DNA of 20,313 bases from a virus: the IMG/VR virus record IMGVR_UViG_3300022929_004573, positions 1 through 20,313 of that record; one strand, given 5' to 3'. Of this stretch, positions 90-19,768 are shown piece by piece. The translations under genes were made by a program, and so were the position numbers. Below the pieces are notes generated by a model. That model was not told the DNA's origin. It was given only the letters and a program-made list of their open reading frames with translations, and did no database searches. Positions within the stretch are counted from its first letter, which is position 1; the number at the start of each line of letters is the position of its first letter.

Positions 90-123
90 AGACAAACTGT
101 CTGGTAGGGGCTATTATTATTTT
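81..123 (+). terminator. Strong intrinsic terminator after the first gene
   Basis: Bases 81-94 pair with 98-111 in a 14-bp stem (12 Watson-Crick and two T-G pairs) closed by a 3-base AAC loop. An AT-only run with a TTTT end follows (112-123). It lies 14 bases after the stop of the upstream gene. The outer stem (GCCCCTA with TAGGGGC) includes most of the 12-mer repeat that recurs in this window. The same bases carry a promoter for the next gene. Confidence 0.85.
89..117 (+). promoter_or_regulatory. Leaderless promoter embedded in the terminator (drives 124..372)
   Basis: A -35-like TAGACA (89-94), a 17-base spacer and a -10-like TATTAT (112-117) are followed by exactly six bases and then the ATG at 124. 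The predicted transcription start is the A of the start codon. There is no convincing ribosome binding site, in keeping with leaderless translation. The -35 lies in the terminator stem and the -10 in its T-rich tail. Confidence 0.55.
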
Positions 124-372
124 ATGCAAGATTTTGAAGCATGGATAAAGCACGGATTTGAGATGGGCTGGTGTGGTCCAGCTATTTGCTACACCCATGA
201 CGGCATACCTATCTCTGAGCCCGAACAGGCTGAAATGGACGAGGGCAATGACTCATGTATCCACATAATTAGGCTCTACGAGGACCCTATTCACAAGATA
301 GCTGTGGAGGCAAACCACTCCCCTTCTATTTGGCGTGCTACTAATCACGGTTTAGACATTGAATCTGACTAA
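124..372 (+). CDS. Small conserved actinophage-type protein of unknown function
   Basis: Encodes 82 residues with Trp, Cys and His spread along the chain. The segment WCGPAICYTHDG (residues 16-27), a central acidic stretch leading into CIHIIRLYED, and the C-terminal ANHSPSIWRATNHGL resemble a small protein family I remember from actinobacteriophage genomes; that resemblance is from memory and was not searched. No signal peptide or membrane segment is seen. The ATG follows the terminator tail directly and has a leaderless-type promoter, which favours this start. The gene overlaps the next by 14 bases, suggesting co-transcription. Its role is unknown. Confidence 0.75.
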   Translation: MQDFEAWIKHGFEMGWCGPAICYTHDGIPISEPEQAEMDEGNDSCIHIIRLYEDPIHKIAVEANHSPSIWRATNHGLDIESD

Positions 373-937
373 ACTGCACCCTTTAATTTGGGTTGTGCAT
401 GATTTTGTGGGTCAGGAAATTATTGACTCTGTTTTAAGTGACGTTAGCGACTTAGAAGACTCGAGCTGGATGTTAGATGCAGGCTCTTTAAACTCTGAGT
501 CTTTTTGGATAAATAGAACAGTTCCTCCAGATAAATTCAGCGACAAAACTAGAACTTTGATGGACGAACTCAATAAAAGTGTTACAGATTGTTTTGACTA
601 CTATAAAGAAATAATTGAGGTAGGAAATCTTCACAGAACGCTCCCAGATGGTAGAAGTCTTGACTACCACATAGATAATTATGATGGTCCTGATCTTGAA
701 AATGTTTTTGGCATTGTAATTTACTTAAACGAAGACTACGAAGGCGGTCAAATTCACTATAAAGATTTAGATATTTTTTACAAACCTAAGGCAGGGGATT
801 TGATAGTTCACTATGCTGGACTACTGCATGGCGTAACTGAAGTAAGTTCTGGTATTAGGTATATATTTACTATGTTTGTTAGAGGATCCGATAAAACAAC
901 TTTTATGGGAGAAATAGCGGACCTTTCGGTCTTGTAG
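359..937 (+). CDS. 2-oxoglutarate/Fe(II)-dependent oxygenase (prolyl-4-hydroxylase-like)
   Basis: A 192-residue protein with the double-stranded beta-helix core of Fe(II)/2OG dioxygenases. The iron ligands appear as His104-x-Asp106 (YHIDNY) and His157 (LLHGV), and Arg167 (SGIRY) would hold the 2-oxoglutarate C5 carboxylate. The segments YLNEDYEGG and KPKAGDLIVHYAGLLHGV are typical of the prolyl/lysyl hydroxylase-like branch. Such enzymes couple oxidative decarboxylation of 2OG to hydroxylation of a substrate, here unknown. The TTG start at 359 overlaps the previous gene by 14 bases; an in-frame GTG at 395 is an alternative but would cut into the first strand. It is the first of five intact oxygenases in the window. 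Being cytoplasmic is inferred from the lack of a signal peptide. Confidence 0.85.
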   Translation: MNLTKLHPLIWVVHDFVGQEIIDSVLSDVSDLEDSSWMLDAGSLNSESFWINRTVPPDKFSDKTRTLMDELNKSVTDCFDYYKEIIEVGNLHRTLPDGRSLDYHIDNYDGPDLENVFGIVIYLNEDYEGGQIHYKDLDIFYKPKAGDLIVHYAGLLHGVTEVSSGIRYIFTMFVRGSDKTTFMGEIADLSVL

Positions 938-940
938 GAT

Positions 941-946
941 TATACT
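941..946 (+). promoter_or_regulatory. Possible -10 element before the FkbM-like gene
   Basis: TATACT lies 20 bases before the ATG at 967, and an AGGAG ribosome binding site (959-963) lies between them. This would give a normal short leader, unlike most unit heads here. No good -35 is seen, so the gene may instead be read from the upstream promoter. Confidence 0.3.
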
Positions 947-966
947 CAAGATATATCAGGAGAGAC

Positions 967-1536
967 ATGCTTTCAGACCAATTTGTATTGGACATTCTAA
1001 AAAACAAGCGAGACGGATACTATGTAGAGCTTGGTGGTGCTGACCCGATTGAGGGCAGTAACACATATAAGCTAGAAAAAGAGTATGGCTGGAAAGGTGT
1101 CAGCTTTGACTGGGACCAAAAGCATGCTGACAAGTTTAACGAAGTTAGAGACAATCCCTGCCTTGCTGTGGATGCTATTAGTTTTAATCACGGTAAGTAT
1201 TTTGAGGAAAACAACTTCCCCGAGAGAATTGACTACCTACAGGTAGACGTTGACACTGGCTACCTAGAAAATGGGCACCCGATTGGCAACTTCGGTTCAA
1301 ACCTTCTAGGTCTTATCTCTCTGCCTCTAACCAGGTATCGTTTCTCCGTTGTAACGTTCGAGCATGATGCAAACATCTACTTTAAACTTAATTCAGTTAG
1401 AGATGCTCAGAGAGAGATTATGGACGCTCTTGGTTACTCTCTAGTCCGACGATATACTTGGGAAGACTGGTGGGTTGACCCAGAAATTGCTGACTACATG
1501 ACTTATAGAGACCACTTTGTGCACGATGCACCTTAG
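967..1536 (+). CDS. FkbM-like SAM-dependent methyltransferase
   Basis: A 189-residue protein. Residues 18-33 (YYVELGGADPIEGSNT) form the glycine-rich S-adenosylmethionine loop and WKGVSFDWD (42-50) supplies the acidic residue at the end of strand 2; IDYLQVDVDTGYLENG (88-103) follows. This layout matches FkbM-type methyltransferases, which O-methylate sugars or polyketides. Phage and cyanobacterial relatives usually sit in glycan clusters, as here. The protein is shorter than many FkbM proteins but holds the whole N-terminal Rossmann half. AGGAG four bases before the ATG supports the start. Its stop overlaps the convergent oxygenase stop by four bases. The methyl acceptor is unknown; a sugar hydroxyl is the likeliest guess. 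Confidence 0.75.
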   Translation: MLSDQFVLDILKNKRDGYYVELGGADPIEGSNTYKLEKEYGWKGVSFDWDQKHADKFNEVRDNPCLAVDAISFNHGKYFEENNFPERIDYLQVDVDTGYLENGHPIGNFGSNLLGLISLPLTRYRFSVVTFEHDANIYFKLNSVRDAQREIMDALGYSLVRRYTWEDWWVDPEIADYMTYRDHFVHDAP

Positions 1537-2120
1537 TTATTTAAGAATTCTTCCCAAAGGTCGTCGTCGTACTCGGCTGGTAGCTCAAAATTTCTAAAAA
1601 ATATAATTACATTTACACGCTTTCCCGTTAGTACTTCTCGCACTCCGTGTAAGTTTGCTGCGTTACCTCTAAACATTATTAAATCGCCCTGTTCGAGCCG
1701 TACTTCTTTATTGTGGTGCTCAAAGTAAAGATTTCCTCCCGTGTAGTCGCTATTTAGCATTAAAATACAGGAGTAGTGTTCTTCAATATCTTTTTTCCCC
1801 GGATAGACATCTCCGTCATCATCATGCGGCTCGTTTATAGCTCCTGCATACATGATGTTGCCAAAGAGTCTTTTAAGTTCAAATCGGTTGTACGTAAACT
1901 CGTAGTTTTCTTTGAAAGTTTTATCGGCAAGCTTCAATGCTTTTGCTACCAACATATGCTCTTCTGGTGCCACGCCTCGTGCAATATCCTGCCAAAGCAT
2001 TCCTGAATGCCTGTAGTGTGGACGGTAGTCCTCTTCGGAGTTGTTTTCTATGTAATTCATCAATGTCTCGCACTCTTCAGGAGTTAAAACATTTTTCTTT
2101 AGGTAAAAAAGCTCTGGCAT
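1533..2120 (-). CDS. 2-oxoglutarate/Fe(II)-dependent oxygenase, paralogue A
   Basis: A 195-residue Fe(II)/2OG dioxygenase. The iron ligands are His99-x-Asp101 (EPHDDDGD) and His158 (NLHGV); Arg168 (TGKRVN) is the 2OG-binding residue. It shares long identical or near-identical stretches with the oxygenase at 5897..6451: LxPEeC near residues 12-17, RLFGNIM, HDDDGD, HYSCILMLNSDY and GDLIMFRGNAANLHGV. The two are therefore paralogues. They fall in the prolyl-4-hydroxylase-like branch common in aquatic phages. The gene stands alone between two plus-strand genes and is divergent from the subtilase. A TAGACT hexamer seven bases before ATG suggests leaderless expression. The substrate is unknown. Confidence 0.88.
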   Translation of the reverse strand: MPELFYLKKNVLTPEECETLMNYIENNSEEDYRPHYRHSGMLWQDIARGVAPEEHMLVAKALKLADKTFKENYEFTYNRFELKRLFGNIMYAGAINEPHDDDGDVYPGKKDIEEHYSCILMLNSDYTGGNLYFEHHNKEVRLEQGDLIMFRGNAANLHGVREVLTGKRVNVIIFFRNFELPAEYDDDLWEEFLNN

Positions 2121-2127
2121 GTGTATA

Positions 2128-2133
2128 AGTCTA
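2128..2133 (-). promoter_or_regulatory. Leaderless -10 element (drives 1533..2120)
   Basis: Read on the minus strand this is TAGACT followed by seven bases and the ATG at 2120. No clear -35 and no ribosome binding site are visible. Confidence 0.4.
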
Positions 2134-2159
2134 CCCCACCAATAAAGTCACTAAAAAGC

Positions 2160-2188
2160 TTGCGGAAATATTGATAGTGTGCTAACTT
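2160..2188 (+). promoter_or_regulatory. Leaderless promoter of the subtilase gene
   Basis: TTGCGG (2160-2165), a 17-base spacer and TAACTT (2183-2188) precede the ATG at 2195 by six bases. This matches the TAnnnT-N6-ATG pattern. No ribosome binding site is present. Confidence 0.5.
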
Positions 2189-2194
2189 ACTTGC

Positions 2195-3577
2195 ATGCTA
2201 AAACAACTAAGTAAAACAGTAGTAACAGCTGTAGGGCTTGTTACATCTCTTTCGATAGGGCTCTCTAGCCTAATGCCAGAAGAAGGCAGGGTAGAGCTGC
2301 CCCCCGTCACTGTAGAAAACTATAAAACTGTAGAAGATGTTGCAGGAAGTTTAAACGACACAGTGTTTACCATCATGGGGAGCCAAGCTAATGCCACTTG
2401 GGGCCTAGACCTAATAGATGGCACTAAAGACGGTTCTTACAACTACACCAGTCAAGGATCTGGTGTTCGTATATACATTGTAGATACTGGCGTAGATGCT
2501 CTACATCCCGAGTTTTCTGGACGTGTAGCGGATGGGTTTGATGCTTTCGGACAGAACTTAGACCAGACAGACTGCAATGGCCACGGAACTCATGTCGCTG
2601 GCATTGCTGCTGGTGACTACTTTGGGGTAGCTAAGTCTGCAACTATTGTCCCCGTAAGGGTTATGGACTGTGATGGGCGTGGGAACACTACAACTCTTAC
2701 TAGCGGTATCGATTGGATAGTCTCTAATTACTCTGGTGGTGCAGGTGTTGTCAATATGAGCATCGGCGGAAATAAGGATGAAAAAGTAAATGCAGCAGTA
2801 TCTAAACTTATTTCAGCTGGCTTAGTTGTTGTAGCCGCGGCTGGCAACTCTGGGTCAGATGCATGTAACTATTCTCCTGCTTCTGCTGCTGGAGTTATTG
2901 CTACAGGAGCAATTGATATTTTTGAGACCGTAGCAGACTTCTCTAACTGGGGAGACTGTGTAGATGTTTTAGCACCTGGGGTCAGAATTAACTCTGCAAA
3001 CTCTAGCGACTACTCCATGTCTCGAAGAATGAGCGGTACTTCTCAAGCTAGTCCATTTGTGGCGGGCGCGATTGCAACTTATCTTTCGAGCGGGTCAGTA
3101 ACTTCTCCAAGTCAAGCTGAGCCGTATCTTCGTGAGCTGGCCGTAAATGGAATAGCAAGGGTTGAATCAGAGCCAGCCCCACTACCAGAGCCCACGCCAG
3201 AACCCACAGTAGAGCCAGAACCTGAGTTAGTAGAGCCAGAGCCATCAGAACCGCCTGCTATAGATGAGCCAATTGTATCAGAGCCTGAAATTGTCGAAGA
3301 CCCGATAAATAACCTAATCAAAGCAGAGCCTCGGAGGGTTGGTTCAGCTTTTGTAAACATATCTTGGGAGCAGATAGATGGAGTTGCTTCCTACGATATC
3401 TATAGATCTCCCGCTGTTCCAGAATTTGTCTGGGAGCCAGTAGGGTCTACTACTGCTGAATACTCTATGAGGGTAGTGACATCTAAAAAAGGCAGCCATT
3501 ACTACTTTAAAGTCGAGGCAAAAATGATAGATGGAAGCGTCATAGAACTAGGGACAACTTCTTACTCTTCGAATTAA
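2195..3577 (+). CDS. Secreted subtilisin-like serine protease (S8, proteinase K type) with Pro/Glu linker and Fn3 domain
   Basis: A 460-residue precursor. Residues 1-26 form a signal peptide (Lys near the start, then a hydrophobic stretch). The S8 domain spans about 65-320: catalytic Asp97 (IVDTGVD), His130 (NGHGTHVAG) and Ser283 (SGTSQASP), with oxyanion Asn218 (AAAGNSG). TWGLDLID before the domain and VRVMDCDGRGNT within it are typical of proteinase K relatives. A Pro/Glu-rich linker (324-370) leads to a C-terminal fibronectin type III-like domain (373-458) that may bind a surface. Oddity: only about 40 residues lie between signal peptide and catalytic domain, so the usual I9 propeptide chaperone seems absent or minimal. 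It is likely exported and would cleave extracellular or envelope proteins. An exported protease is unusual cargo for a phage. Confidence 0.92.
   Translation: MLKQLSKTVVTAVGLVTSLSIGLSSLMPEEGRVELPPVTVENYKTVEDVAGSLNDTVFTIMGSQANATWGLDLIDGTKDGSYNYTSQGSGVRIYIVDTGVDALHPEFSGRVADGFDAFGQNLDQTDCNGHGTHVAGIAAGDYFGVAKSATIVPVRVMDCDGRGNTTTLTSGIDWIVSNYSGGAGVVNMSIGGNKDEKVNAAVSKLISAGLVVVAAAGNSGSDACNYSPASAAGVIATGAIDIFETVADFSNWGDCVDVLAPGVRINSANSSDYSMSRRMSGTSQASPFVAGAIATYLSSGSVTSPSQAEPYLRELAVNGIARVESEPAPLPEPTPEPTVEPEPELVEPEPSEPPAIDEPIVSEPEIVEDPINNLIKAEPRRVGSAFVNISWEQIDGVASYDIYRSPAVPEFVWEPVGSTTAEYSMRVVTSKKGSHYYFKVEAKMIDGSVIELGTTSYSSN
3164..3304 (+). repeat. Pro/Glu-rich low-complexity linker in the subtilase
   Basis: Imperfect GAG-CCA-type codon repeats encode PEPTPEPTVEPEPELVEPEP and similar units. 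The stretch separates the catalytic domain from the Fn3 domain and is expected to be extended and flexible. It also creates spurious long antisense reading frames. Confidence 0.8.
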
Positions 3578-3687
3578 GGTAATAAGTATAGCATATTACG
3601 TACCGCTATTTTGCTGGATAATGTACAGAGGACTACGTGCAAATATGTCATACAAACTTAGGTCTAACTTTGTATAAAAGAAGGGTA

Positions 3688-3693
3688 TAGGAT
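3688..3693 (+). promoter_or_regulatory. Leaderless -10 element (drives 3700..3936)
   Basis: TAGGAT lies six bases before the ATG at 3700. The intervening AGGACC could also act as a weak ribosome binding site, so either mode is possible. It sits at the end of a 122-base gap that otherwise shows no terminator or RNA. Confidence 0.45.
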
Positions 3694-3699
3694 AGGACC

Positions 3700-3936
3700 A
3701 TGATTGAAATAGATGTTGTAACCCTCTCGATGGGTGTTTTGATAGGCGAATTCATCATTATTCTGATTCTGATGGGACATCTTGGACGTGAATCTGCAGC
3801 TCATGAGCGTAAAAATCGGGCTGACGAACGCGAAAAGATCGTGCGTTTGATTCAGAGCACTCGCCGCGGACTTAAAAGCGACGAGGCAAACGAACTAAGA
3901 GACGCCCTTATTGACAAGGTTCGAGCTAAAGACTAA
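3700..3936 (+). CDS. Small membrane-anchored protein with charged cytoplasmic helix
   Basis: Encodes 78 residues. Residues 5-27 (VVTLSMGVLIGEFIIILILM) are a single hydrophobic helix, and 28-78 form a highly charged, probably helical segment with many Arg, Lys, Glu and Asp. The layout suggests one transmembrane segment with a cytoplasmic coiled-coil or helical tail. I recognise no family. Small one-helix proteins in phages often affect membrane or lysis functions, but nothing here specifies that. The ATG has a leaderless-type -10 element. The 3' end overlaps the convergent GT61 gene by 11 bases. Confidence 0.6.
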   Translation: MIEIDVVTLSMGVLIGEFIIILILMGHLGRESAAHERKNRADEREKIVRLIQSTRRGLKSDEANELRDALIDKVRAKD

Positions 3937-4996
3937 GAGTTTCTGAGACTTTTTCAATTCTTTCGATAACCTCAGCAGCGTTCCTCCTTGAGGGTATCAA
4001 GATGTGCACTGTTTCTTGCATGTAAGAGTCAGTTAAATAGTGATTACTCTCAAAAACCTGTAGAACTCCCCATTTCTCGTCTTCAAAGGCAAGCTCTGAT
4101 CCAATGTCCACGACTATTTGGTCTTTTTGCATAAAATGACCATTAGCTAGTCCAGTTCCAGTCAGCCCCACAAGAATTTTTGTCTGATTAAAGAACTTAA
4201 CTTGGTCTTCTATGGTTTTAAACTTTTCCTCGGGGGTAACTATTTCGTATCCTTTGCCCCTGAAATAGTTCTCTAAAGTCTCCTCGTTGTCCATGCGAAT
4301 GTCAGTGGATACCCTGTTTTCTCCACCACCTACAGCTTCTACCCCTGGTAGTGTTCTGTCATGGTCCAGATGCCTTCTCGACAAATAAACTTTTCTGTAA
4401 GGGGCTACTTGTCGCTCTTCTTCCGTTAAGACGTGGTTTTTTACGGCTTCCATTCCGTTTTTAATGTCTCCTGACGTAAAAGTGAATGCTACTCGAGTCT
4501 CCTGCTCCCCCAGTCTTATTAGATTTGTTACTTTAAAAGCAACAGGAGAATCGCCCTTCTCATGAAAGAAATAGGTGACTCCCTCGTGATCTAAGAAAGA
4601 CCTTATGTATTCAGTGGTAGCAGAGCGAGAGTTCATTGTGAGCTTTGACCCCATACCATAAGCCATAGTGTTGTGGATTATGAAGTACGTATACGGGTAT
4701 GCTTTATGTATTTTTAAAACTATTGGAATTAAATCGTGAAATGCAGTGTAAAAAGCATCGTTCATTGTTATAAAGATTACGTGCCAGTCGGGAGAAGAAG
4801 TTCGGGGGTCGTCTAGCAAGTCATAGAGATGTTTATGCTCTTCCCATTGGGAGGGGGTGTAGTGAATAACACCTTCGTTTTCCGTTTTGGCCAAAAGATA
4901 TGCTTCTTCTTTATGGACTATAAATTCATCATAACTAAACGGAAGCACTGCCGTACACGGGTGAGGTGCAACCTGCTCAAAGCCAAATGTAATCAT
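3926..4996 (-). CDS. GT61-family glycosyltransferase (DUF563-like)
   Basis: A 356-residue protein with the C-terminal signature of family GT61: RKVYLSRR (201-208), DNEETLENYFRGKGYEIVTPEE (236-257) with Gln265 in the following helix, then LVGLTGTGLANGHFM (275-289) and a VVDIG strand. GT61 includes eukaryotic EOGT and plant xylosyl/arabinosyltransferases, and bacterial members in polysaccharide clusters; it is an inverting GT-B enzyme. Residues 1-190 are divergent and may form the acceptor-binding half. It is the last gene of a three-gene minus-strand operon, seven bases after the GT8 stop, with AGAGG and TAGGG upstream of the ATG as ribosome binding candidates. No signal peptide or membrane segment is seen. 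Donor sugar and acceptor are unknown. Confidence 0.8.
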   Translation of the reverse strand: MITFGFEQVAPHPCTAVLPFSYDEFIVHKEEAYLLAKTENEGVIHYTPSQWEEHKHLYDLLDDPRTSSPDWHVIFITMNDAFYTAFHDLIPIVLKIHKAYPYTYFIIHNTMAYGMGSKLTMNSRSATTEYIRSFLDHEGVTYFFHEKGDSPVAFKVTNLIRLGEQETRVAFTFTSGDIKNGMEAVKNHVLTEEERQVAPYRKVYLSRRHLDHDRTLPGVEAVGGGENRVSTDIRMDNEETLENYFRGKGYEIVTPEEKFKTIEDQVKFFNQTKILVGLTGTGLANGHFMQKDQIVVDIGSELAFEDEKWGVLQVFESNHYLTDSYMQETVHILIPSRRNAAEVIERIEKVSETLSL

Positions 4997-5003
4997 TGCC
5001 CTA

Positions 5004-5894
5004 CTACCTCTTAACTTCTATGTCGTCATACTCTGCAGTAGCCATAGTCGGGTCTGGCGGGTCTAAGTTTGGCCGCCAAAGATTTTCTATCCCCCAAACC
5101 TCGTCATAAACCCTTCTCCACTCTAAGTCGTAGGGACCGCGATCTCTATCGTAGTTAATATTGTCAGTCCATGGCTTTGCTGGCCCTCGGAAGTGCACTA
5201 TTACAGGATTTTTATAGATTTGGTTCATGCTAGAAAAACTATCAAAACAATTAAAGTTGCCGCTCATGGGGAACCAATTTTCGTAAAGAATTGCATTGAA
5301 AGCAGTTTGTTCGATAGCAAAAGGCATGTGAGTAGCGTTTGCATGGTTCTCGGCCGCCCATTCCGTAAACGCTTCTTCTAGCTTCCCCTCTCTCCAAGCA
5401 TTTAAGTCAGCAATAAACACACCGCTATTAAAATAAGCTCTTTCGGGGTGCCCTATGTCTATGGCAGCTGTCATAGTATCTTCGGCATATGCAACTATTT
5501 TTTGTCCATATAATTTGTGCTCAATAAAGTCAGTGGGGTCTGCTGTGATAAAAGCATCGGAGTCTACGTAAACTGCCTCGTCGTAGTCGTGGCAAATAGA
5601 CGAGATAAAAAGTTTTATGAGTGCTGTTCTTGTGTGGTGCGTGTTGTGGAAGTTTATACTCCAACGGTCATCCTGAACATACGAATCAAACTTGTCTGCA
5701 GTCCTAAATTCTATGTCTAGATGTTCTCTGTCTACTGCTTCTATGGCTTCTTGCTCCCTCAGACGTAAGTCATAAGGGACCATGCAGATAACTTTGATTG
5801 GTTTTTTGTAGTGATTTCCTAAACTTCTTAGAAGCACGCAAGCGTACTCAAAATAGTTTTCATCAAAGTTGGTTACAAAACACCTATTAGACAT
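5004..5894 (-). CDS. GT8-family glycosyltransferase
   Basis: A 296-residue retaining GT-A glycosyltransferase. Asp111-Ser-Asp113 (VYVDSDAFI) is the metal-binding DxD motif. YFNSGVFIADLNAW (154-167) and HFRGPAKPW (234-242) are the classic GT8 C-terminal motifs, with the final HxxGxxKPW holding metal and phosphate. IEQTAFNAIL (194-203) replaces the usual DQDxLN. GT8 enzymes transfer galactose, glucose or related sugars from UDP donors. The gene begins two bases after the stop of the oxygenase 5897..6451, with AAGG upstream of ATG, so translation is probably coupled. It is related to the plus-strand GT8 at 11384..12160, but the two differ enough to use different acceptors. Confidence 0.9.
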   Translation of the reverse strand: MSNRCFVTNFDENYFEYACVLLRSLGNHYKKPIKVICMVPYDLRLREQEAIEAVDREHLDIEFRTADKFDSYVQDDRWSINFHNTHHTRTALIKLFISSICHDYDEAVYVDSDAFITADPTDFIEHKLYGQKIVAYAEDTMTAAIDIGHPERAYFNSGVFIADLNAWREGKLEEAFTEWAAENHANATHMPFAIEQTAFNAILYENWFPMSGNFNCFDSFSSMNQIYKNPVIVHFRGPAKPWTDNINYDRDRGPYDLEWRRVYDEVWGIENLWRPNLDPPDPTMATAEYDDIEVKR

Positions 5895-5896
5895 TG

Positions 5897-6451
5897 CTAA
5901 ACCTTGGGTATGTAGTCTCTAAAGAAAAAGATAAAGTTGTAGCGCTTTCCCTCTTTAACAGGACGTACTCCGTGTAGATTTTCTGCGTTCCCTCGGAACA
6001 TAATGACGTCGCCCTCTTCTAGCTTTACTTGTAGTCCATGGTGTTGGAAGTAGAGCTCTCCCCCCTCGTAGTCGCTATTAAGCATAAGAATAGAAGAGTA
6101 GTGAAGCTCTACGTCTGGCTTACCTTCGTAATGATCTCCGTCATCATCGTGTGCTGGATTTTCTGCACCAGTATCCATGATATTCCCGTACAAGCGCTTC
6201 ATATCAAAGGTGTACTTAATTTCATAGTTACTTTTAAAAAACTCTTCGACCTTGTTGATAGCACTCCTAAGGGGGTTAAGAAATACTATTTCTTCGTTAT
6301 AGAAGTCTTCGACAGGAATCGTGGCCATCTTGTATCCAGGCCTGAAGGCGTCTTTATGTGAATATTGATCTATCCAATCACGGTAAGACTTGCACTGCTC
6401 GGGCGTTAAAACATTTTTAACTAACTTATAGGGGAGCTCTTTTTCAGACAT
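5897..6451 (-). CDS. 2-oxoglutarate/Fe(II)-dependent oxygenase, paralogue B
   Basis: A 184-residue Fe(II)/2OG dioxygenase. Iron ligands are His101-x-Asp103 (PAHDDDGD) and His160 (NLHGV); Arg170 (EGKRYN) would bind 2OG. It is a clear paralogue of 1533..2120 and lacks only that protein's acidic C-terminal extension. It leads a tight operon with GT8 and GT61, which suggests that its hydroxylated product is the glycosyltransferase acceptor. That link is inferred from gene order only. The start has a TAGAAT hexamer six bases upstream and no ribosome binding site. The promoter region is shared with the divergent carbamoyltransferase gene. Confidence 0.9.
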   Translation of the reverse strand: MSEKELPYKLVKNVLTPEQCKSYRDWIDQYSHKDAFRPGYKMATIPVEDFYNEEIVFLNPLRSAINKVEEFFKSNYEIKYTFDMKRLYGNIMDTGAENPAHDDDGDHYEGKPDVELHYSSILMLNSDYEGGELYFQHHGLQVKLEEGDVIMFRGNAENLHGVRPVKEGKRYNFIFFFRDYIPKV

Positions 6452-6457
6452 AGAAAC

Positions 6458-6463
6458 ATTCTA
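6458..6463 (-). promoter_or_regulatory. Leaderless -10 element (drives oxygenase-GT8-GT61 operon)
   Basis: On the minus strand this reads TAGAAT, six bases before the ATG at 6451. Only three bases separate it from the -10 of the divergent carbamoyltransferase promoter, so the two polymerases would compete. Confidence 0.5.
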
Positions 6464-6466: not shown

Positions 6467-6472
6467 TAGACT
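6467..6472 (+). promoter_or_regulatory. Leaderless -10 element (drives carbamoyltransferase)
   Basis: TAGACT lies six bases before the ATG at 6479. A weak TTCAGA (6443-6448) sits 18 bases upstream as a poor -35. No ribosome binding site is present. Confidence 0.5.
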
Positions 6473-9304: not shown

Positions 9305-9310
9305 ATTTTA
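9305..9310 (-). promoter_or_regulatory. Leaderless -10 element (drives 8660..9298)
   Basis: On the minus strand this is TAAAAT, six bases before the ATG at 9298. No -35 or ribosome binding site stands out. Confidence 0.5.
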
Positions 9311-9339: not shown

Positions 9340-9345
9340 TAAACT
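9340..9345 (+). promoter_or_regulatory. Leaderless -10 element (drives serine recombinase)
   Basis: TAAACT lies seven bases before the ATG at 9353. The surrounding 9331-9352 is strongly AT-rich. No ribosome binding site is present. Confidence 0.4.
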
Positions 9346-11367: not shown

Positions 11368-11373
11368 AGTGTA
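11368..11373 (-). promoter_or_regulatory. Leaderless -10 element (drives RmlB-like gene)
   Basis: On the minus strand this is TACACT, six bases before the ATG at 11361. It overlaps by two bases the -10 of the divergent GT8 gene. Confidence 0.45.
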
Positions 11374-11377
11374 GTCT
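11372..11377 (+). promoter_or_regulatory. Leaderless -10 element (drives GT8-GT-SGNH unit)
   Basis: TAGTCT lies six bases before the ATG at 11384. The whole divergent intergenic region is 22 bases, so both promoters must share it. Confidence 0.5.
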
Positions 11378-14808: not shown

Positions 14809-15563
14809 TGAGAGTTCCGACTGTAGTCTTGCCCATGGCGGGCGAAGGATCTAGGCTAAAGTCTAGGTTCGATGACCCTAAGCCTTTTGTGCAAATTAAA
14901 GGAGTCACTCTTTTAGAGCTATCTTTGCTTGGATTCCCTGAAGAGTGGGATGTAGTTTTAGTGTGTAGGGGTGAGCACGTGGGCAGGCTTGAAAAACTTT
15001 TAGTAGATAGTCCTGTGTTTAAAAATAGGAATTGCAGAATTTCTATATTCCCTGGTCAAAGTTCTGGTCAAGCGGAGACTGCTCTCTTCGGGATGACGGG
15101 CATTTCTCCAGACGCCCCTATTGTTGTATCAAACTGCGACACCTACTTTTCTGCTGACTTTGAGGTAGACAACTACTACGACGGATTGATTGGGACCTTT
15201 AAATCAAATAGCAGTGCTTACTCCTATGTTGAAATCAAAGATGGCTTGGCTGTCAGAACTGCTGAAAAAGAAGTCATATCTAACAGGGCTAGCTCTGGAA
15301 TTTATTACTTCTCTGATGTAAGAACTTACATAGATGCTTATCTATCTACTGATTGGAATGGTGAAAGATACATAGCCCCCATGTACAACAGCATGATTGA
15401 AGAAGGTCTACTGGTTACCGAAGTTAGGCAAAAGTTTGTAGTTCCACTTGGAACTCCTGAAGAAATTGACTATGCTGTAAAACATGGACGCTCGAGAGTG
15501 GGCAGAGCTGTGGCACTCGTTAACAGACGAAGAAAGAGAAGCCGTGCTCGTGATGAAGCGTAA
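14808..15563 (+). CDS. Sugar- or choline-phosphate nucleotidyltransferase
   Basis: A 251-residue protein. LPMAGEGSRLKSRFDDPKPFVQIKG (8-32) is the nucleotidyltransferase signature with Gly-rich loop, Arg16 and Lys25. VVSNCDTYFSADF contains the metal-binding Asp, and SSGIYYFSD and the C-terminal VPLGTPEEIDYAV complete a LicC/GlmU-N-like domain. It would join NTP with a phosphorylated sugar or alcohol, releasing pyrophosphate. The GTG start overlaps the kinase stop as TAGTG. The last 26 residues, Arg-rich from about residue 226, are read from bases that also encode the next small gene in another frame. They look unlike a normal domain end, so a short non-conserved tail or a frameshift is possible. 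Confidence 0.85.
   Translation: MRVPTVVLPMAGEGSRLKSRFDDPKPFVQIKGVTLLELSLLGFPEEWDVVLVCRGEHVGRLEKLLVDSPVFKNRNCRISIFPGQSSGQAETALFGMTGISPDAPIVVSNCDTYFSADFEVDNYYDGLIGTFKSNSSAYSYVEIKDGLAVRTAEKEVISNRASSGIYYFSDVRTYIDAYLSTDWNGERYIAPMYNSMIEEGLLVTEVRQKFVVPLGTPEEIDYAVKHGRSRVGRAVALVNRRRKRSRARDEA
15111..15122 (+). repeat. Copy 3 of the 12-mer GACGCCCCTATT
   Basis: An exact copy inside the nucleotidyltransferase gene, read as Asp-Ala-Pro-Ile just before the VVSNCDTYF metal-binding strand. The match with copy 5 extends to 17 bases (AGACGCCCCTATTGTTG). Confidence 0.8.
15471..15476 (+). promoter_or_regulatory. Possible intragenic leaderless -10 element
   Basis: TATGCT within the nucleotidyltransferase gene lies seven bases before the ATG of the small gene at 15484, fitting the window's pattern. 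It is also coding sequence (Tyr-Ala), so chance is a fair explanation. Confidence 0.2.
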
Positions 15564-15636
15564 AGAGCTCCAGCGCAGGGAGCAAGAGTTTTACGAGGCG
15601 AAAGCAAAGAGGGATGCCGCCAAGAAAGAAAGTTAA
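15484..15636 (+). CDS. Small charged helical protein overlapping the nucleotidyltransferase gene
   Basis: ATG 15484 opens a 50-residue frame in +1 relative to the nucleotidyltransferase and overlaps it by 80 bases. The N-terminus (DAREWAELWHSLTDEEREAV) looks like a natural helix-turn-helix cap, followed by a Lys/Arg/Glu-rich helix likely to form a coiled coil. Composition and heptad-like spacing are far more protein-like than the Arg-rich tail read in the other frame. I recognise no family with confidence. It overlaps the next small gene by 23 bases. Function is unknown. Confidence 0.6.
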   Translation: MDAREWAELWHSLTDEEREAVLVMKRKELQRREQEFYEAKAKRDAAKKES

Positions 15637-15787
15637 AGTAGTAGACGCCCCTATTGTCTACAAAGAAGGCGAAGAGTCCCTGTCGGTGTTTGGGTGGTGT
15701 TCTACTGGACATCACGAGATATGTAGAGTAGAATTTCCAGGACATAAATGTTCGTGTGAGTGTCATAAAGGATTTAATAATGCATAA
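15614..15787 (+). CDS. Small Cys/His-rich actinophage-type protein (probable zinc-binding)
   Basis: A 57-residue frame with a basic start (MPPRKKVKVV) and a C-terminal cluster of four Cys and several His: FGWCSTGHHEICRVEF and GHKCSCECHKG. The spacing (C-x4-H-H-x2-C, then C-x-C-x-C-H) suggests a metal-binding knuckle. I remember similar small Cys/His proteins in actinobacteriophage genomes; this was not searched. It overlaps the preceding small gene by 23 bases and the following SGNH gene by eight. Residues 11-14 are the Asp-Ala-Pro-Ile of the dispersed 12-mer. Possible roles include nucleic-acid or protein binding. Confidence 0.65.
   Translation: MPPRKKVKVVDAPIVYKEGEESLSVFGWCSTGHHEICRVEFPGHKCSCECHKGFNNA
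15644..15655 (+). repeat. Copy 4 of the 12-mer GACGCCCCTATT
   Basis: An exact copy inside the Cys/His-rich small gene. Flanking GTAGAC (15641-15646) and GTCTAC (15656-15661) are perfect inverted repeats, so the copy can sit in a 6-bp hairpin with a 9-base loop. It shares 18 bases with copy 5 (AGTAGACGCCCCTATTGT). Confidence 0.8.
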
Positions 15788-16670
15788 AAAATTTGAACCT
15801 GATTTTTTTGATGCTCTTTTAGATAGATCAATAGATCATCGATTTCATTTTGGTGATCCTTCTGATGACACTAGCTACCACCATGAAGTAAACTCTCTCG
15901 GCTCTAGGGGTAAAAAAGAGCTAGAGCGGTCTAAATTGTTAGCAGCTGGATGTTCCCAGACCTTTGGAATGGGTGTCCCTGAAGGGTGGACTTGGCCTTC
16001 AATTCTCGCAACAAAACTGGGCGTGTCTTACACAAATATTGGCTCTGTCGGAGCTTCCGTACAGGGGATTGTTGGAAATATAATTTCTTACATTGAAGAA
16101 ATAGGCGCCCCTGAAGTTATCTGCGTTGTTTTTCCGCAAATATGGAGATATGAGTTTGGAATTGACAGTAAAATTATTTTTAGCAAAAAAGACGGTCCTC
16201 AGGAGGAGCCTCACGTAGCGGTTGTTATAAACACTCCTCCCGATGTAAATCCGCCTAACCTCTCTAAGCGTCCTCATGAAATAACCGAAATTATTGGAGA
16301 AGCCTCGTCGGTCTACTTAACTTCAATAGCAATAAGAGAATTAATCCACTACTGCAGAGCAAAAAATATAAAACTATTGTTTAGTTCTTGGGATATTGAT
16401 GCCGATTCAATCTTTTCTAGGGCAAAAAATACACACTCTATATACAGTAACTATCTTTCTTTAGGGGATGATTTACTAGAATTTGAAGATGATCGTAACA
16501 GAGACACTACTTCCGATATTCACTATAAATGTCACACAGGGATACTCGACAAACCAAAAGAGTGGGTTAGGGGTTTAGACCAATCCCGCCACATGGGGGC
16601 GCATCAGCACCTTCACTACGCAGAACTGTTCGAGAGACATATAAGAGAGGCAGAGAACAATGTCAAATAA
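15780..16670 (+). CDS. SGNH/GDSL-hydrolase-like protein, paralogue 2
   Basis: A 296-residue protein from ATG 15780, preferred over GTG 15756 because AAGGA (15767-15771) sits at ribosome-binding distance and the overlap with the previous gene shrinks to eight bases. KLLAAGCSQTFGMGVPEGWTWPSILA is block I with candidate nucleophile Ser59. SVGASVQGI follows as block II region, and IKLLFSSWDID is a core strand. The C-terminus LDQSRHMGAHQHLHYAELF has the same His cluster as paralogues 1 and 3. The middle LSKRPHE segment also recurs in all three. No signal peptide is seen. An esterase or acyltransferase acting on glycan substituents is the most likely role. The exact activity is unknown. Confidence 0.75.
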   Translation: MHKKFEPDFFDALLDRSIDHRFHFGDPSDDTSYHHEVNSLGSRGKKELERSKLLAAGCSQTFGMGVPEGWTWPSILATKLGVSYTNIGSVGASVQGIVGNIISYIEEIGAPEVICVVFPQIWRYEFGIDSKIIFSKKDGPQEEPHVAVVINTPPDVNPPNLSKRPHEITEIIGEASSVYLTSIAIRELIHYCRAKNIKLLFSSWDIDADSIFSRAKNTHSIYSNYLSLGDDLLEFEDDRNRDTTSDIHYKCHTGILDKPKEWVRGLDQSRHMGAHQHLHYAELFERHIREAENNVK

Positions 16671-16836
16671 AAATAGCTGGGCAACTGTAACCCTAATAGA
16701 TGGAATGATCTATGAAGGCACTATTGAAGAGGAAGCTCCCTATGGGCTTTACTTCCATATTGGTGGTAACGAAGATAGGCTCTGCATGTGGCCTTGGCAG
16801 AATATAGTTAGAGTCATATATCGAAAAGAGCAATAG
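16660..16836 (+). CDS. Small beta-rich actinophage-type protein
   Basis: A 58-residue frame: ATG overlaps the SGNH stop by 11 bases and TAG overlaps the next GTG start as TAGTG. The pattern WATVTLIDGMIYEGTIEEE, then LYFHIGGNEDRLCMWPWQNIVRVIY is a five-strand SH3/Sm-like barrel layout. I recall proteins of this form with the WPW motif in actinobacteriophages; this was not searched. Exact tiling between two genes supports translation. Function is unknown. Confidence 0.7.
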   Translation: MSNKNSWATVTLIDGMIYEGTIEEEAPYGLYFHIGGNEDRLCMWPWQNIVRVIYRKEQ

Positions 16837-17789
16837 TGAAGTTTCTAACTCCCAAGAATGAGATTATAGATATAGAGGGAGAGATAAGTTTAGAAGATAC
16901 TAAACTTCACGAGACAGTAAACCTAAAACACGGAGAAGAATACTTTGCCCGTCAGTATTTGCAGTTTAGTCTAGAGCCCGAGCAAATCCCGGCAAGAGAA
17001 CATGACACTGTTCATATTTTTGAAAAAGAAGTAAATTCTTTTAACTATAGAAGTCCAGAATTTAGTCAAGTAGACCTTATAACTCTAGGTTGCTCACAAA
17101 CTTTTGGAATTGGTGTCTGCTACGAATACATATGGCCAAATCTTTTAGCCAAAAAGCTCAATTTTACTCATGCCAATATCTCGCTGCCTGGGTGGTCTGC
17201 TTCACAAGCAATAAGAAATTTTTATATTTATGTAAATACCTACGGGAAGCCTAAGGCGGTTAGTCTCTTGCTCCCTGATTTTTTTAGATACCTATATGTA
17301 GTCACTCCCGAAGTTTCTCGACTCTACAGCGGGGAAGAGCCATGGCCTCAGCCGCGACTTGAGGTAGGACAGCTTCACATAGACGGTATTTGGGACATAA
17401 AAAACCTTCCTGTCTTATCTAAGCGTCCCCACCTAATGAGCGAAGTTGTGACTCCTGATTTTAGTTTTTATCAAAATCTAGATGATATCTACAAATTTCT
17501 AGTTTTTTGTGAACAGTTGGGTATAGCTGTGTCTATTAGTTCATGGCACGGTGACGAGACTTTAGATCTTCTTAGAGCTCTTGGGACTATAAATGAGAAA
17601 CTTTTTTATGAAGATATCAGCGAGTCCGTAGAAAAATGTCAAAATTTAGACCACTTTTCAATAAAAAAGGAATTGATGCACGACGAGTTTGATGTGGGCT
17701 TGGACAAAGCTCAACATATGGGTGTCCATGAGCACATGCACCATGCCGAAAATGCGGAAAAAATACTAAGAAAACAGCTTGACTTATAG
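16836..17789 (+). CDS. SGNH/GDSL-hydrolase-like protein, paralogue 3
   Basis: A 317-residue protein. LITLGCSQTFGIGVCYEYIWPNLLA (81-105) is block I with candidate nucleophile Ser87. SLPGWSASQAI matches the PGWSTQS of paralogue 1, PVLSKRPHLMSEV matches the LSK(R/K)PH segment of the others, and IAVSISSWHGDE is the SSW core strand. The C-terminus LDKAQHMGVHEHMHHAE has the common His cluster. The GTG start makes a TAGTG junction with the preceding small gene. Paralogues 1 and 3 appear closer to each other in the PGWS segment, while 2 and 3 share GCSQTFG. The protein is probably cytoplasmic and acts in the same pathway as the other two. Confidence 0.75.
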   Translation: MKFLTPKNEIIDIEGEISLEDTKLHETVNLKHGEEYFARQYLQFSLEPEQIPAREHDTVHIFEKEVNSFNYRSPEFSQVDLITLGCSQTFGIGVCYEYIWPNLLAKKLNFTHANISLPGWSASQAIRNFYIYVNTYGKPKAVSLLLPDFFRYLYVVTPEVSRLYSGEEPWPQPRLEVGQLHIDGIWDIKNLPVLSKRPHLMSEVVTPDFSFYQNLDDIYKFLVFCEQLGIAVSISSWHGDETLDLLRALGTINEKLFYEDISESVEKCQNLDHFSIKKELMHDEFDVGLDKAQHMGVHEHMHHAENAEKILRKQLDL

Positions 17790-17808
17790 GCAAATTTAAT
17801 GCTATGTT
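17779..17808 (+). promoter_or_regulatory. Leaderless promoter of the metalloprotease lipoprotein gene
   Basis: TTGACT (17779-17784), an 18-base spacer and TATGTT (17803-17808) precede the ATG at 17815 by six bases. This is the best -35/-10 pair in the window. The -35 lies in the last codons of the SGNH gene. Confidence 0.6.
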
Positions 17809-17814
17809 AGTAGC

Positions 17815-19269
17815 ATGAAGAAATTAGCTGTAGTTGTTGCGGGGCTTTTGGTCCTAACTGGTTGCTCGTCTGTCGAGCCTGAGAATGTCTCCCTTCCCGC
17901 ACAAACCGAAGAAGCGGCGCAAGATACGCGTCCTAGTGACGATGATGTTTTAGTAGAGGTTACTCCTTCGACTGATGAAGGTGAGTTTGAGCCAGTAGAC
18001 GCCCCTATTGTTGAGGAAGAAGCTGTACAAGAAGATGTACAAGTTTCTGACCCTGTTGAGTATATTTTTTCAAGTGAAATTGTTGATGACTCTATCTGCA
18101 AACTGAAAGAAGATAGTGATCCTCGTAGAAGGTGGGCCGATGTGCCTGCGACTGGGTTCCCTCTCAACACATACGGTGCGACGGTTTCTCAGTTTGGTAC
18201 CGCAAAAGTAAAAGTTGTGTTTCTAGAGTGGGAAGACCTGAGGGGGACTCGGGAAGATTATGACTATCACGTAGAAGAACTAACCAGAGCCAACGAGTTC
18301 TACAGAGTTGTATCTGAAGGCAAGTTCGGTTTTGACATTAGCTTTGAGCAAGAGTGGATGTTGGTTGATGGCTCTTACCAAGACTCCTACTTCACCGACG
18401 AAATGACCGACGCTGGACACAATTCAGCTTCTCGCATCCAGCAGCGCATCGACAAATTTATTGCGGCTACAGATGACACGGTGGACTACTCGGATGTTGA
18501 CGTGCTTTTCTTTGGCCTCCCGCGTGCGAAGACGGTAATTGAATCGGGTGGACTGCACATTTTTGGGGACGGCGGATGGGTGTTTGGAAATACCCAAGAA
18601 GGGACCATCCTCAATATCTTTGCCTTCGGAGAGAGGGTCTTTAATCACATTGGGCAAAATCAAGGATGGGCTTGGTTTGCACACGAATTTGGTCACGTGC
18701 TCAAAATGCCTGACCTAGCAGACGAGACTCAGGGGCGCAATACCCCAGACATGTATGTGAATACACCGTTCTATGGATTTGACGTAATGGCAAATCAAGA
18801 TGCAGGAACGCAAGGGCTCTCTGCCTGGATGAAGTGGCTGCAGGGTTGGTTGGATGATTCGCAGGTCACTTGCATAGACGCCGATAATGTTGACGAAGAG
18901 TTTTATAAACTAGATGAAGCCAACATTGTTGGTGGCGAAAACGAGATGCTTGTTGTTCGCCTGAGCGATACAAAGGCTCTGATTGTTGAGTCTCGACGCT
19001 GGGATTCTAGATTTGACCTTCCGATTGCTCATTCGCGTGATGGTGTAATTGTCTACTTAGTTGATGTCACTCGCGGTCACTGGCAAGGACCACTTCGATT
19101 GCTAAGCCCGAGAGACATTACACAGTACTTGTCTCAAGAAAATGTGTGGCCTGATTGGCGAGTGCTGGACGTAATTATGTTTGAGGGTGACTCCATAACT
19201 TTTGATGGGGTCACTGTAGAAGTCAAGCAAACCTCTATGTATGGAGATATAGTAAGCGTTTCTAGATAG
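17815..19269 (+). CDS. M6-like zinc metalloprotease lipoprotein
   Basis: A 484-residue protein. Residues 1-17 are a lipoprotein signal peptide ending in lipobox LTGC, so Cys17 would be lipidated and the protein anchored outside the membrane. An acidic, Glu/Asp-rich linker follows (20-85). The catalytic domain starts near 95; WFAHEFGHVLKMPDLAD (287-303) gives HExxH with His290, Glu291 and His294 and the PDL ending typical of M6 (immune inhibitor A) peptidases. GFDVMANQDAGTQGLSAWMKWLQGWL (321-346) matches the M6 segment after the active site. It probably degrades extracellular or envelope proteins. The linker contains the dispersed 12-mer. An exported lipoprotein protease is unusual for a phage and could come from a host. 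Confidence 0.88.
   Translation: MKKLAVVVAGLLVLTGCSSVEPENVSLPAQTEEAAQDTRPSDDDVLVEVTPSTDEGEFEPVDAPIVEEEAVQEDVQVSDPVEYIFSSEIVDDSICKLKEDSDPRRRWADVPATGFPLNTYGATVSQFGTAKVKVVFLEWEDLRGTREDYDYHVEELTRANEFYRVVSEGKFGFDISFEQEWMLVDGSYQDSYFTDEMTDAGHNSASRIQQRIDKFIAATDDTVDYSDVDVLFFGLPRAKTVIESGGLHIFGDGGWVFGNTQEGTILNIFAFGERVFNHIGQNQGWAWFAHEFGHVLKMPDLADETQGRNTPDMYVNTPFYGFDVMANQDAGTQGLSAWMKWLQGWLDDSQVTCIDADNVDEEFYKLDEANIVGGENEMLVVRLSDTKALIVESRRWDSRFDLPIAHSRDGVIVYLVDVTRGHWQGPLRLLSPRDITQYLSQENVWPDWRVLDVIMFEGDSITFDGVTVEVKQTSMYGDIVSVSR
17998..18009 (+). repeat. Copy 5 of the 12-mer GACGCCCCTATT
   Basis: An exact copy in the acidic linker of the M6 lipoprotein, read as Asp-Ala-Pro-Ile at residues 62-65. Eighteen bases match copy 4, and 17 match copy 3. 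Confidence 0.8.
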
Positions 19270-19273
19270 CTGA

Positions 19274-19279
19274 TAAGAT
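19274..19279 (+). promoter_or_regulatory. Leaderless -10 element (drives 19286..)
   Basis: TAAGAT lies six bases before the ATG at 19286. It begins four bases after the metalloprotease stop. No -35 or ribosome binding site stands out. Confidence 0.5.
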
Positions 19280-19285
19280 TTTAAT

Positions 19286-19768
19286 ATGAGTTTAGATAAA
19301 TTGGACAGCTACGTAGCTAGAGGAACTATTAGGGAATTTCTAGAGTATCTTCTTGCAAACGGAACTAACGAAATTGCAGAAGCTCCCGACCATATAGCTG
19401 GAACAGATCCCACTCAGCTGCGGATTGGGTCTGTAGTTAACTCTATAAAAGAGTTTCACGTAGACAGAGCAGAGAACTTTACAGGAGTACGAGGAAAACT
19501 AACAACACTAGGATACAGCTTTGTTGTAGATGATGAAATTCCAGAGTTGCCAACGGGAACTCGGACAGTAGGCATTTTCTACATGACAAAGAAAACTGAC
19601 TATGTCGGTGGTCCCGACGTTGTTGGCTCCTCTAAGCATCAAGGCAATATTGGAGATGTTATTTGGTTCAACAGTAAACATTGGGAACACTTAGAACTGG
19701 GTAAATCTACCGAAGGCACTAACTACAGACTCTTTGCATTTTGGGGTTCTGACTGGAGCTTCAATTAA
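19286..19768 (+). CDS. Unknown protein, possibly a divergent cupin/2OG-oxygenase fold
   Basis: Encodes 160 residues with no family I can name. FHVD (57-60) could be an HxD pair, and GNIGDVIWFNSKHWEHLELG (120-139) followed by TNYRLFAFWGSDW (145-157) looks like the end of a double-stranded beta helix: GD-strand, distal His (132 or 135) and Arg148. The spacing from HxD to distal His, about 75 residues, is longer than the 50-60 of the oxygenases in this window but within the fold's range. The gene directly precedes a true 2OG oxygenase with no gap. The assignment is speculative; a plain cupin without enzyme activity is equally possible. Confidence 0.6.
   Translation: MSLDKLDSYVARGTIREFLEYLLANGTNEIAEAPDHIAGTDPTQLRIGSVVNSIKEFHVDRAENFTGVRGKLTTLGYSFVVDDEIPELPTGTRTVGIFYMTKKTDYVGGPDVVGSSKHQGNIGDVIWFNSKHWEHLELGKSTEGTNYRLFAFWGSDWSFN

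Follow-up and report, generated by a model that had tools for sequence, protein, structure and literature searches.

A TANNNT motif about 12 bp upstream of the start codon is treated as a sign of leaderless genes in the text of Zheng 2011 excerpted here (PMC3160421). Leaderless phage promoters, divergent ones among them, have been predicted in mycobacteriophages, as the parts of two reports drawn on here describe (PMC4351075; PMC11373665). Work on bidirectional promoters by Warman and colleagues, likewise cited from portions of the text, describes opposed -10 elements that overlap, with transcription starts 7-25 bp apart (PMC12825309; PMC10268837); divergent starts 18 bp apart are the commonest and 10 and 23 bp are also frequent (PMC12825309). 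We analysed a 20,313-base stretch of DNA with a guanine-cytosine (GC) content of 0.433 (IMG/VR virus record IMGVR_UViG_3300022929_004573, positions 1 to 20,313; the whole stretch is hereafter the window), in which a TAnnnT box precedes start codons at a fixed distance. The window encodes oxygenases, glycosyltransferases, a peptidase and a recombinase and looks like an accessory region. The best explanation of its start-codon boxes, which we hold with high confidence, is that they are host -10 boxes fused to start codons, which would yield leaderless mRNAs of the actinobacterial type.

TAnnnT boxes at a fixed distance from start codons

An earlier note on this DNA named 14 genes as heads of transcription units. 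TAnnnT ends exactly six bases ahead of the ATG (gap 6) at ten of the 14: 124, 2195, 3700, 6451, 6479, 9298, 11361, 11384, 17815 and 19286, with 6451, 9298 and 11361 on the minus strand. Two more heads, 2120 (minus strand) and 9353, have the box at gap 7, and 967 and 13882 have it at neither distance. All 12 positions and both departures were confirmed when every coordinate was re-read. A box at gap 6 or 7 is absent from all 11 other starts in the window (11/11), and none was found among 12 internal window starts checked (0/12). The candidate -10 boxes and the hairpin preceding the first of them are given below with counts from orthologue or homologue upstream sequences; counts for the oxygenase genes take in paralogues.

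81..111, plus strand: terminator-like hairpin with a 14-bp stem and a T-rich tail, overlapping a promoter-like TAGACA (89-94), 17 bp, TATTAT
112..117, plus strand: -10 box TATTAT, gap 6 to ATG 124, within the T-rich tail after the hairpin; orthologues have gap 6 in 6/11 distinct upstreams
2128..2133, minus strand: -10 box TAGACT, gap 7 to ATG 2120, 2OG-Fe(II) oxygenase; homologues have gap 6 in 10/25 upstreams and gap 7 in 2 more (12/25)
2183..2188, plus strand: -10 box TAACTT, extended TG, gap 6 to ATG 2195, S8 peptidase; weak -35 candidate TTGCGG with a 17-bp spacer; gap 6 in 1/1 orthologue upstream
3688..3693, plus strand: -10 box TAGGAT, gap 6 to ATG 3700; gap 6 in 2/2 orthologue upstreams
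6458..6463, minus strand: -10 box TAGAAT, gap 6 to ATG 6451, 2OG-Fe(II) oxygenase; homologue upstreams have gap 6 in 6/13 and gap 7 in 3 (9/13)
6467..6472, plus strand: -10 box TAGACT, gap 6 to ATG 6479, carbamoyltransferase; 27-bp spacer common with 6451
9305..9310, minus strand: -10 box TAAAAT, extended TG, gap 6 to ATG 9298, 2OG-Fe(II) oxygenase; gap 6 or 7 in 6/6 homologue upstreams, one of which (L005) is a near copy of the window
9340..9345, plus strand: -10 box TAAACT, gap 7 to ATG 9353, serine recombinase
11368..11373, minus strand: -10 box TACACT, gap 6 to ATG 11361, NAD-dependent epimerase; shares 2 bp with the opposite -10 box
11372..11377, plus strand: -10 box TAGTCT, gap 6 to ATG 11384, GT8 glycosyltransferase; 22-bp spacer common with 11361
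17803..17808, plus strand: -10 box TATGTT, extended TG, gap 6 to ATG 17815; -35 TTGACT with an 18-bp spacer; orthologue upstreams were looked for and none was found
19274..19279, plus strand: -10 box TAAGAT, extended TG, gap 6 to ATG 19286; gap 6 in 4/4 orthologue upstreams, two of the four near copies

The earlier note had also described these heads as mostly devoid of ribosome binding sites that internal genes often have, and this held. A loose Shine-Dalgarno-like pattern occurs at 2/14 heads, 967 and 3700, versus 5/12 internal starts. Of the 12 boxed heads, 11 lack it; the one match, at 3700, overlaps the -10 box.

TAnnnT occurs 692 times on both strands of the window (1.70% of positions, about 1 in 59) and at 53 of 1318 positions in ten intergenic stretches (4.0%); the note had expected about 1 in 64, somewhat more in AT-rich DNA. 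Ten of 14 at gap 6 has a probability of 2e-15 at the first rate and 1e-11 at the second, values that are too generous because the heads were picked by a reader who could see the sequence. When the 14 upstream 40-mers were shuffled 2000 times with dinucleotides preserved, the box never stood at gap 6 in more than 5/14, or at any single gap in more than 6/14. Among 654 other ATGs of the window, 11 have the box at gap 6 and 7 at gap 7 (18 together). The equal TAnnnT frequency at internal genes and in shuffled sequence that the note had named as evidence against its claim was not seen in the window.

Our gene caller favours long open reading frames (ORFs), and taking one start per gene dilutes the signal (4/66 spaced co-directional starts in related contig G007). 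We therefore adopted a start-agnostic test, which accepts any in-frame ATG near the start of each called gene at offsets from 0 to 40. The test does not depend on which heads the note had chosen. Gap 6 has an in-frame ATG in 10/25 genes of the window, whereas 36 other offsets average 0.7 (0.56 in a second run).

Promoter-like signals at gap-6 starts

Additional signals were sought at 177 gap-6 starts, selected solely on TAnnnT and ATG, that come from the window and from 12 related contigs following the rule. The base at -1 is a pyrimidine at 153 of the 177 (86%) versus 214 of 692 other ATG starts (31%; P 3e-42), and at 11 of the 12 boxed starts of the window. TTG at -35 with a 17-bp spacer is found at 32/177 versus 5/692, eight other spacers giving 1 to 5 of 177. 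An extended TG is present at 54/177 versus 43/692, and a Shine-Dalgarno-like pattern at 23/177 (13%) versus 365/692 (53%). Among named phages, TTG at -35 is found at 20/36 versus 2/132 starts in Microbacterium phage Pumpernickel and at 6/15 versus 1/148 in Arthrobacter phage Mimi. Clear -35 boxes are scarce in the window, being confined to 124, 17815 and, weakly, 2195. Taken together, these signals suggest that TAnnnT most likely behaves as a -10 element and that the mRNAs are most likely leaderless.

On this sequence-based reading, the boxes would be -10 elements of the main sigma factor of the host. Gap 6 would place the RNA polymerase start on the A of the ATG, and gap 7 would be one base off the usual spacing. 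The resulting mRNAs, with neither leader nor Shine-Dalgarno site, would be translated by the leaderless route of Actinomycetota, and downstream genes of a unit either from Shine-Dalgarno sites or through overlap with the preceding gene. Nearly every unit of this accessory-gene region would own such a promoter, and since a leader would be unnecessary, two head-to-head gene pairs could manage with 22 and 27 bp between their start codons.

Recurrence in relatives and named phages

Relatives were gathered through the carbamoyltransferase gene at 6479 (the best 80 of 162 viral loci). After 31 of 82 sequences were dropped as near copies or as shorter than 8 kb, 51 were compared, window included. Gap 6 is the top offset in every class of start. 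It accounts for 34.0% of the 144 divergent starts, for 13.6% of the 331 that are co-directional and have 40 bp or more upstream, and for 6.2% of the 658 tight ones. The share at other gaps lies between 0.6 and 9.7%, except for gap 11 in divergent starts (15.3%), a second peak that probably comes from opposed boxes.

The start-agnostic test was applied to 18 contigs, window included, a set in which G004/G005 and G013/G014 are near copies and some contigs are cut at a multiple of 20 kb. Gap 6 stands above each of the 36 other offsets in 16/18 and ties with the highest in G021 and G013. The counts at gap 6 include 27 against a mean of 5.8 in G011, 18 against 2.6 in G012 and 16 against 2.5 in G010.

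Conservation of the box among orthologues of individual window genes is mixed. It is retained in several orthologue upstreams whose sequence otherwise differs. Upstream of the carbamoyltransferase gene, gap 6 is found in 9/53 distinct relatives (the nine include two near copies, L026 and L029); the remainder of these upstream sequences diverges widely, and many of those without gap 6 look operon-internal by eye. A counter-example is L015: no gap-6 box precedes its carbamoyltransferase gene, which is separated from a divergent oxygenase gene by about 182 bp. At genes that are not boxed heads, the box is present in 0/5 (967), 0/6 (16660), 0/4 (13882) and 1/5 (5894) orthologue upstreams; the orthologue sets of 13882, 5894 and 14808 consist entirely of AT-rich loci.

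The same spacing is seen in the named phage Pumpernickel. In the top rows of 838 records, the proteins most similar to the G011 portal are those of DSL-LC01 (71.7%) and Pumpernickel (61.7%), followed by those of other Microbacterium, Arthrobacter and Gordonia phages; this similarity and the PHROG matches of 20 G011 proteins point to a large actinophage group. A T4-like origin was considered and rejected, as only ribonucleotide reductase, carbamoyltransferase and a DnaB-like helicase among 23 marker proteins of the Kyanoviridae record C48C1 matched the contigs. In Pumpernickel, gap 6 is found at 44 genes, versus a mean of 4.75 and 12 at the highest other offset, and Gordonia phage GodonK has 7 against 2.3, with 6 at the highest other offset. 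No gap-6 enrichment was found in C48C1, the control (95 of 156 kb; GC content 0.431), with 5 against a mean of 5.94. The starts deposited for Pumpernickel (two annotated stretches, 106 of 109 features used) have gap 6 at 14/34 spaced or divergent positions and 7/72 tight ones, with at most 5 at any other offset in the spaced class. Of the spaced starts, 19 have the box at neither distance, and a count by eye finds AAGGA in 9 of these. Pumpernickel has a named host strain, Microbacterium paraoxydans NRRL B-14843, so that the claim could be tested in one experiment.

How far the rule reaches was gauged in 11 related contigs, where uncertain starts and chance matches blur the figures. Gap 6 is found at 42/148 divergent starts (mean at 24 other offsets, 6.3), 41/125 starts with 16-39 bp upstream (mean elsewhere, 6.2), 48/412 co-directional starts with at least 40 bp (14.9) and 38/465 tight, operon-internal-looking starts (10.3). 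Enrichment is thus strongest at divergent and spaced starts but extends to tight ones. By these counts, most divergent and spaced starts in related genomes lie outside the rule. The suggestion that nearly all first genes are leaderless thus fits the window (12/14 heads) and does not carry over to whole related genomes (42/148).

The gap-6 starts are also clustered, in intervals chosen after inspection of the map: 21/69 genes at 60-110 kb of G011 versus 6/106 outside (P 2e-5), 17/85 versus 7/102 in G007 and 13/59 versus 7/101 in G016. Outside the G011 interval lie the terminase, portal and major head genes (about 130-149 kb) and those for DNA polymerase and primase (12-29 kb); the terminase start at 130711 is itself at gap 6. 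The earlier description of a habit taken to an extreme therefore suits the window region and not these phages generally, whose gap-6 starts cluster and one of which, DSL-LC01, gives no clear signal.

For uncultured actinophages, whose annotation is otherwise guided by Shine-Dalgarno sites, a promoter rule that is exact in position would yield start codons and transcription units straight from sequence.

A probable actinobacterial host

WhiB proteins score above the curated cut-off in 18/20 and 18/30 records of relatives and in 6/6 named phages; among 14 control genomes they do so only in Corynebacterium glutamicum. The group of 20 was mostly picked for following the rule or for similarity, and the group of 30 to include contigs with low or no signal. 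WhiB scores are lower in the second group, so the rule is not a simple consequence of WhiB. The actinobacterial part of the earlier proposal gains indirect support from WhiB in relatives and from the similar portals of Microbacterium, Arthrobacter and Gordonia phages, and the virus probably infects actinobacteria. DSL-LC01 was predicted to infect Actinomycetia in the part of its authors' report cited here (PMC10611076).

Neither of two routes to a host below the phylum succeeded. A near-exact pattern of the tRNA-Glu gene had no match in genome contigs, and looser matches, which reach 94% identity in several genomes, name no host. WhiB matches (the best 80 of 531) are spread across the phylum and name none either.

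Weighing the evidence and the alternatives

Several observations count against host -10 boxes fused to start codons. In the relatives, the excess at gap 6 is weak in the four AT-rich contigs G021, G039, G044 and G033 (P 0.0045 to 0.021) and in the 40-kb G013 (4 versus 1.3; P 0.044). DSL-LC01 shows no clear excess (4 versus 2.58). Mimi has 17 genes at gap 6 versus 6.7, but another offset reaches 19, and its -1 pyrimidine is not significant (11/15 versus 73/148). Orthologue support at gap 6 or 7 is poor for 9353 (3/11) and 11361 (3/9), gap 6 is present in only 1/7 homologue upstreams of 11384, and the internal gene 14808 has a box in 3/7 orthologue upstreams, all in AT-rich loci. The start at 11384 carries A at -1, and the -35 regions of the window are mostly weak, with at most 3/6 matches at 8/12 promoters. 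A generic consensus promoter scan of positions 1-20000, which requires a good -35, gives 18 sites versus 34.8 in shuffles. The set of 177 gap-6 starts contains chance matches, and no window gene was found that fixes the host. Our confidence is slightly reduced by the mixed orthologue counts and by Mimi.

The alternative that survives best, though we think it improbable, is that the promoters are real and the transcripts start a few bases upstream or downstream of the ATG, so that the mRNAs would have very short leaders or would miss the annotated start. The two window heads at gap 7 fit this, as do the epimerase/GT8 pairs of G010 and G011, which have boxes at gap 9 on both sides (the second in G011 by eye) and would give leaders of about 3 bases. 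Against such shifted starts, all 18 contigs have more genes at gap 6 than at gap 7, narrowly so in G039 (12 versus 11), and the pyrimidine-purine step coincides with the A of the ATG.

Marginally less probable still is that the box belongs to a phage-encoded sigma factor or polymerase and not to the main one of the host. The clustering of starts in part of the genome is what a separately controlled gene class would produce. The combination of TTG, a 17-bp spacer and TAnnnT with an extended TG instead resembles a housekeeping-type promoter, and actinobacterial genomes themselves show the spacing: in 62 loci with a GC content above 0.6, where the gene caller is rough, 28 of 570 divergent starts are at gap 6 and 16 at gap 7, against a mean of 1.73 (the remaining 9 of 71 loci, with a GC content up to 0.6, give counts that are too small). 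A phage sigma factor was looked for only with the late sigma protein from C48C1, which matched no contig.

Chance can practically be dismissed. AT-rich DNA and choice could both have helped, since TAnnnT is 2.4 times as frequent between genes as in the window on average and the selection of heads was made by eye. Yet shuffles never exceeded 5/14 at gap 6, other genomes and deposited start codons show the peak at precisely this position, and the unselected -1, -35 and Shine-Dalgarno signals agree.

Two named heads without a box

The two exceptions are probably not unit heads. The gene at 967 lies 29 bp downstream of a co-directional gene and has AGGAG ahead of its ATG, a motif shared by 3/5 of its orthologue upstreams. 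The gene at 13882 starts 45 bp after a tRNA-Glu gene on the same strand, and it may be the tRNA gene that heads this unit. If neither is a head, the rule would cover 12/12 heads of the window.

Around the start of gene 13882 (13843-13895), TAAAAT stands five bases ahead of an ATG at 13854, which opens a 13-codon frame that overlaps the 13882 start by 14 bases. This frame is possibly a leaderless upstream ORF.

Divergent pairs and a hairpin upstream of gene 124

Two pairs of boxed heads are divergent and closely spaced. The start codons of 6451 and 6479 are 27 bp apart, with 3 bp between their -10 boxes; those of 11361 and 11384 are 22 bp apart, and their boxes (11368-11373 and 11372-11377) share 2 bp. 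Overlap of opposed -10 boxes, one mark of a bidirectional promoter, is found at 11361/11384, whose transcription starts would be 23 bp apart if they lie at the ATG. The pair 6451/6479 differs, as its boxes do not overlap and its starts would be 28 bp apart if at the ATG, beyond the 7-25 bp of bidirectional promoters.

Both pairs recur in relatives. The oxygenase/carbamoyltransferase pair is found with 25, 27, 28 and 36 bp and with wider spacings, and the epimerase/GT8 pair with 14, 17 and 22 bp, the 17-bp cases having boxes at gap 9. A count of 42/165 double-leaderless divergent pairs was set aside as a statistic, since those starts had been chosen by the motif. A fair test is a scan for divergent ORFs of at least 60 amino acids within 60 bp and with equal gaps on both sides, not all of which are confirmed as genes; it gives 14 pairs at gap 6 versus 0 to 3 at twelve other gaps, and 9 of the 14 are spaced 14-27 bp. 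Tight pairs of this kind offer a compact natural system for studying promoter sharing between two leaderless genes.

The hairpin at 81-111 (-23.9 kcal/mol, z -6.3) has the most stem pairs in a terminator scan of positions 1-20000, a stretch in which terminator-like sites are no commoner than in shuffles (14 versus 15.1). Its tail, UAUUAUUAUU, is a T tract broken by A, and the sequence that follows the hairpin, TATTATTATT, holds the -10 box of gene 124. In a scan of the same stretch, the 124 promoter has the joint best promoter-like score (10/12), tied with three others. Four relatives have TTGACA in the stem exactly 17 bp ahead of TATTAT, the spacing being counted from the alignment. Across seven aligned sequences, which were selected for having the hairpin and include several near copies, the 13 consensus stem pairs are kept but for one cell, and 3 pairs are changed on both sides. 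The remaining orthologue upstreams of 124 do not have this hairpin. These features suggest that the hairpin may both end the upstream message and start the next gene.

A broader proposal, which we offer tentatively and consider doubtful, is that the accessory region consists of self-contained cassettes of promoter and start codon. Pairs spaced 14-28 bp apart would share a bidirectional leaderless promoter that admits one polymerase at a time, acting as an either/or switch, and the terminator hairpin would double as the next promoter.

Other features of the window

A repeat, GACGCC[CA][CT]TA, occurs ten times in the window, always on the plus strand (78, 3901, 6620, 9356, 9548, 11983, 12553, 15111, 15644 and 17998). 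Several relatives carry it repeatedly, often with a strand bias (13 and 0 in G004, 0 and 11 in G014), but not in G012 (4 and 4), and it is rare in the named phages (Pumpernickel 2, Mimi 3, GodonK 1) and absent from C48C1 (0). Across the window and 16 related contigs (G005 left out), 61 of the 63 copies that lie in sense orientation within called genes are in frame 0, with 17 intergenic and 18 antisense copies. Its density is 1.73 per 10 kb in records with a recombinase match above 60% versus 0.28 in those with none, overlapping records being counted.

The serine recombinase gene itself opens with the GACGCC motif (9353-9368). The sequence GACGCCCCTA is exact in 21/26 listed rows of recombinase orthologues, duplicates included, and the start codon and upstream DNA vary; the close relatives L002 and L003 do not have it. 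The motif may be the recombinase's own site. Recombination at the repeat was not accepted. Of 155 ends of alignment blocks, 9 are no more than 15 bp from a site, whereas 2000 random draws gave 2.3 on average and 10 at most, and six of the nine fall at the start of the recombinase gene.

Four matches to the 2OG-Fe(II) oxygenase family lie within 20 kb (359-937, 1533-2120, 5897-6451 and 8660-9298), the first of which is below the Pfam cut-off yet matches PHROG 61. Genes 359, 10026 and 12788, with starts as called, each overlap the preceding gene by exactly 14 bases. The product of 17815-19269 is lipoprotein-like and has an HEFGH zinc-protease-like motif, read by eye.

Comparison with described systems

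No account of leaderless expression in phages of this group was found among the records listed by literature searches (at most 20 per search), which cover few subscription papers. Among sequenced phages, Pumpernickel resembles the source of the window in that its portal is 61.7% identical to that of the relative G011 and that it follows the gap-6 rule. It differs in being a soil phage with a GC content of 0.565, whose gap-6 starts are mostly co-directional (39/44).

As far as the cited parts of the papers below extend, the nearest phage systems are the promoters PL1, PR2 and PL2 of cluster O mycobacteriophages (PMC4351075) and P90 of Adephagia (PMC11373665), which are predicted leaderless promoters, PL1 and PR2 being divergent. 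Few such promoters are named per mycobacteriophage genome, whereas there are 12 in 20 kb here, and Pumpernickel has about 39 gap-6 genes after subtraction of the mean background.

The pair 11361/11384 is like the bidirectional promoters of Warman and colleagues in its overlapping -10 boxes and in its 23-bp spacing, if the starts are at the ATG. It is unlike those described (PMC12825309; PMC10268837) in that both products would be leaderless protein-coding mRNAs. Five bidirectional promoters of E. coli are reported to drive their two directions independently of each other at basal level (PMC12825309).

The likeness to the TANNNT leaderless genes of actinobacteria (PMC3160421; PMC3898074) lies in the spacing of about 12 bp, the missing Shine-Dalgarno site and the position at the proximal gene. 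Cortes 2013 (PMC3898074) reports no conserved -35 motif, and the -35 regions of the window are likewise weak at most promoters. In contrast to both studies, the boxes here belong to a phage region, where they precede 12/14 named heads in 20 kb, and TTG at -35 is enriched across related contigs. The phenomenon is most likely known actinobacterial leaderless expression, here dense; more unusual are the putatively leaderless head-to-head pairs with 22 and 27 bp between start codons and the terminator-like hairpin that overlaps a promoter-like sequence.

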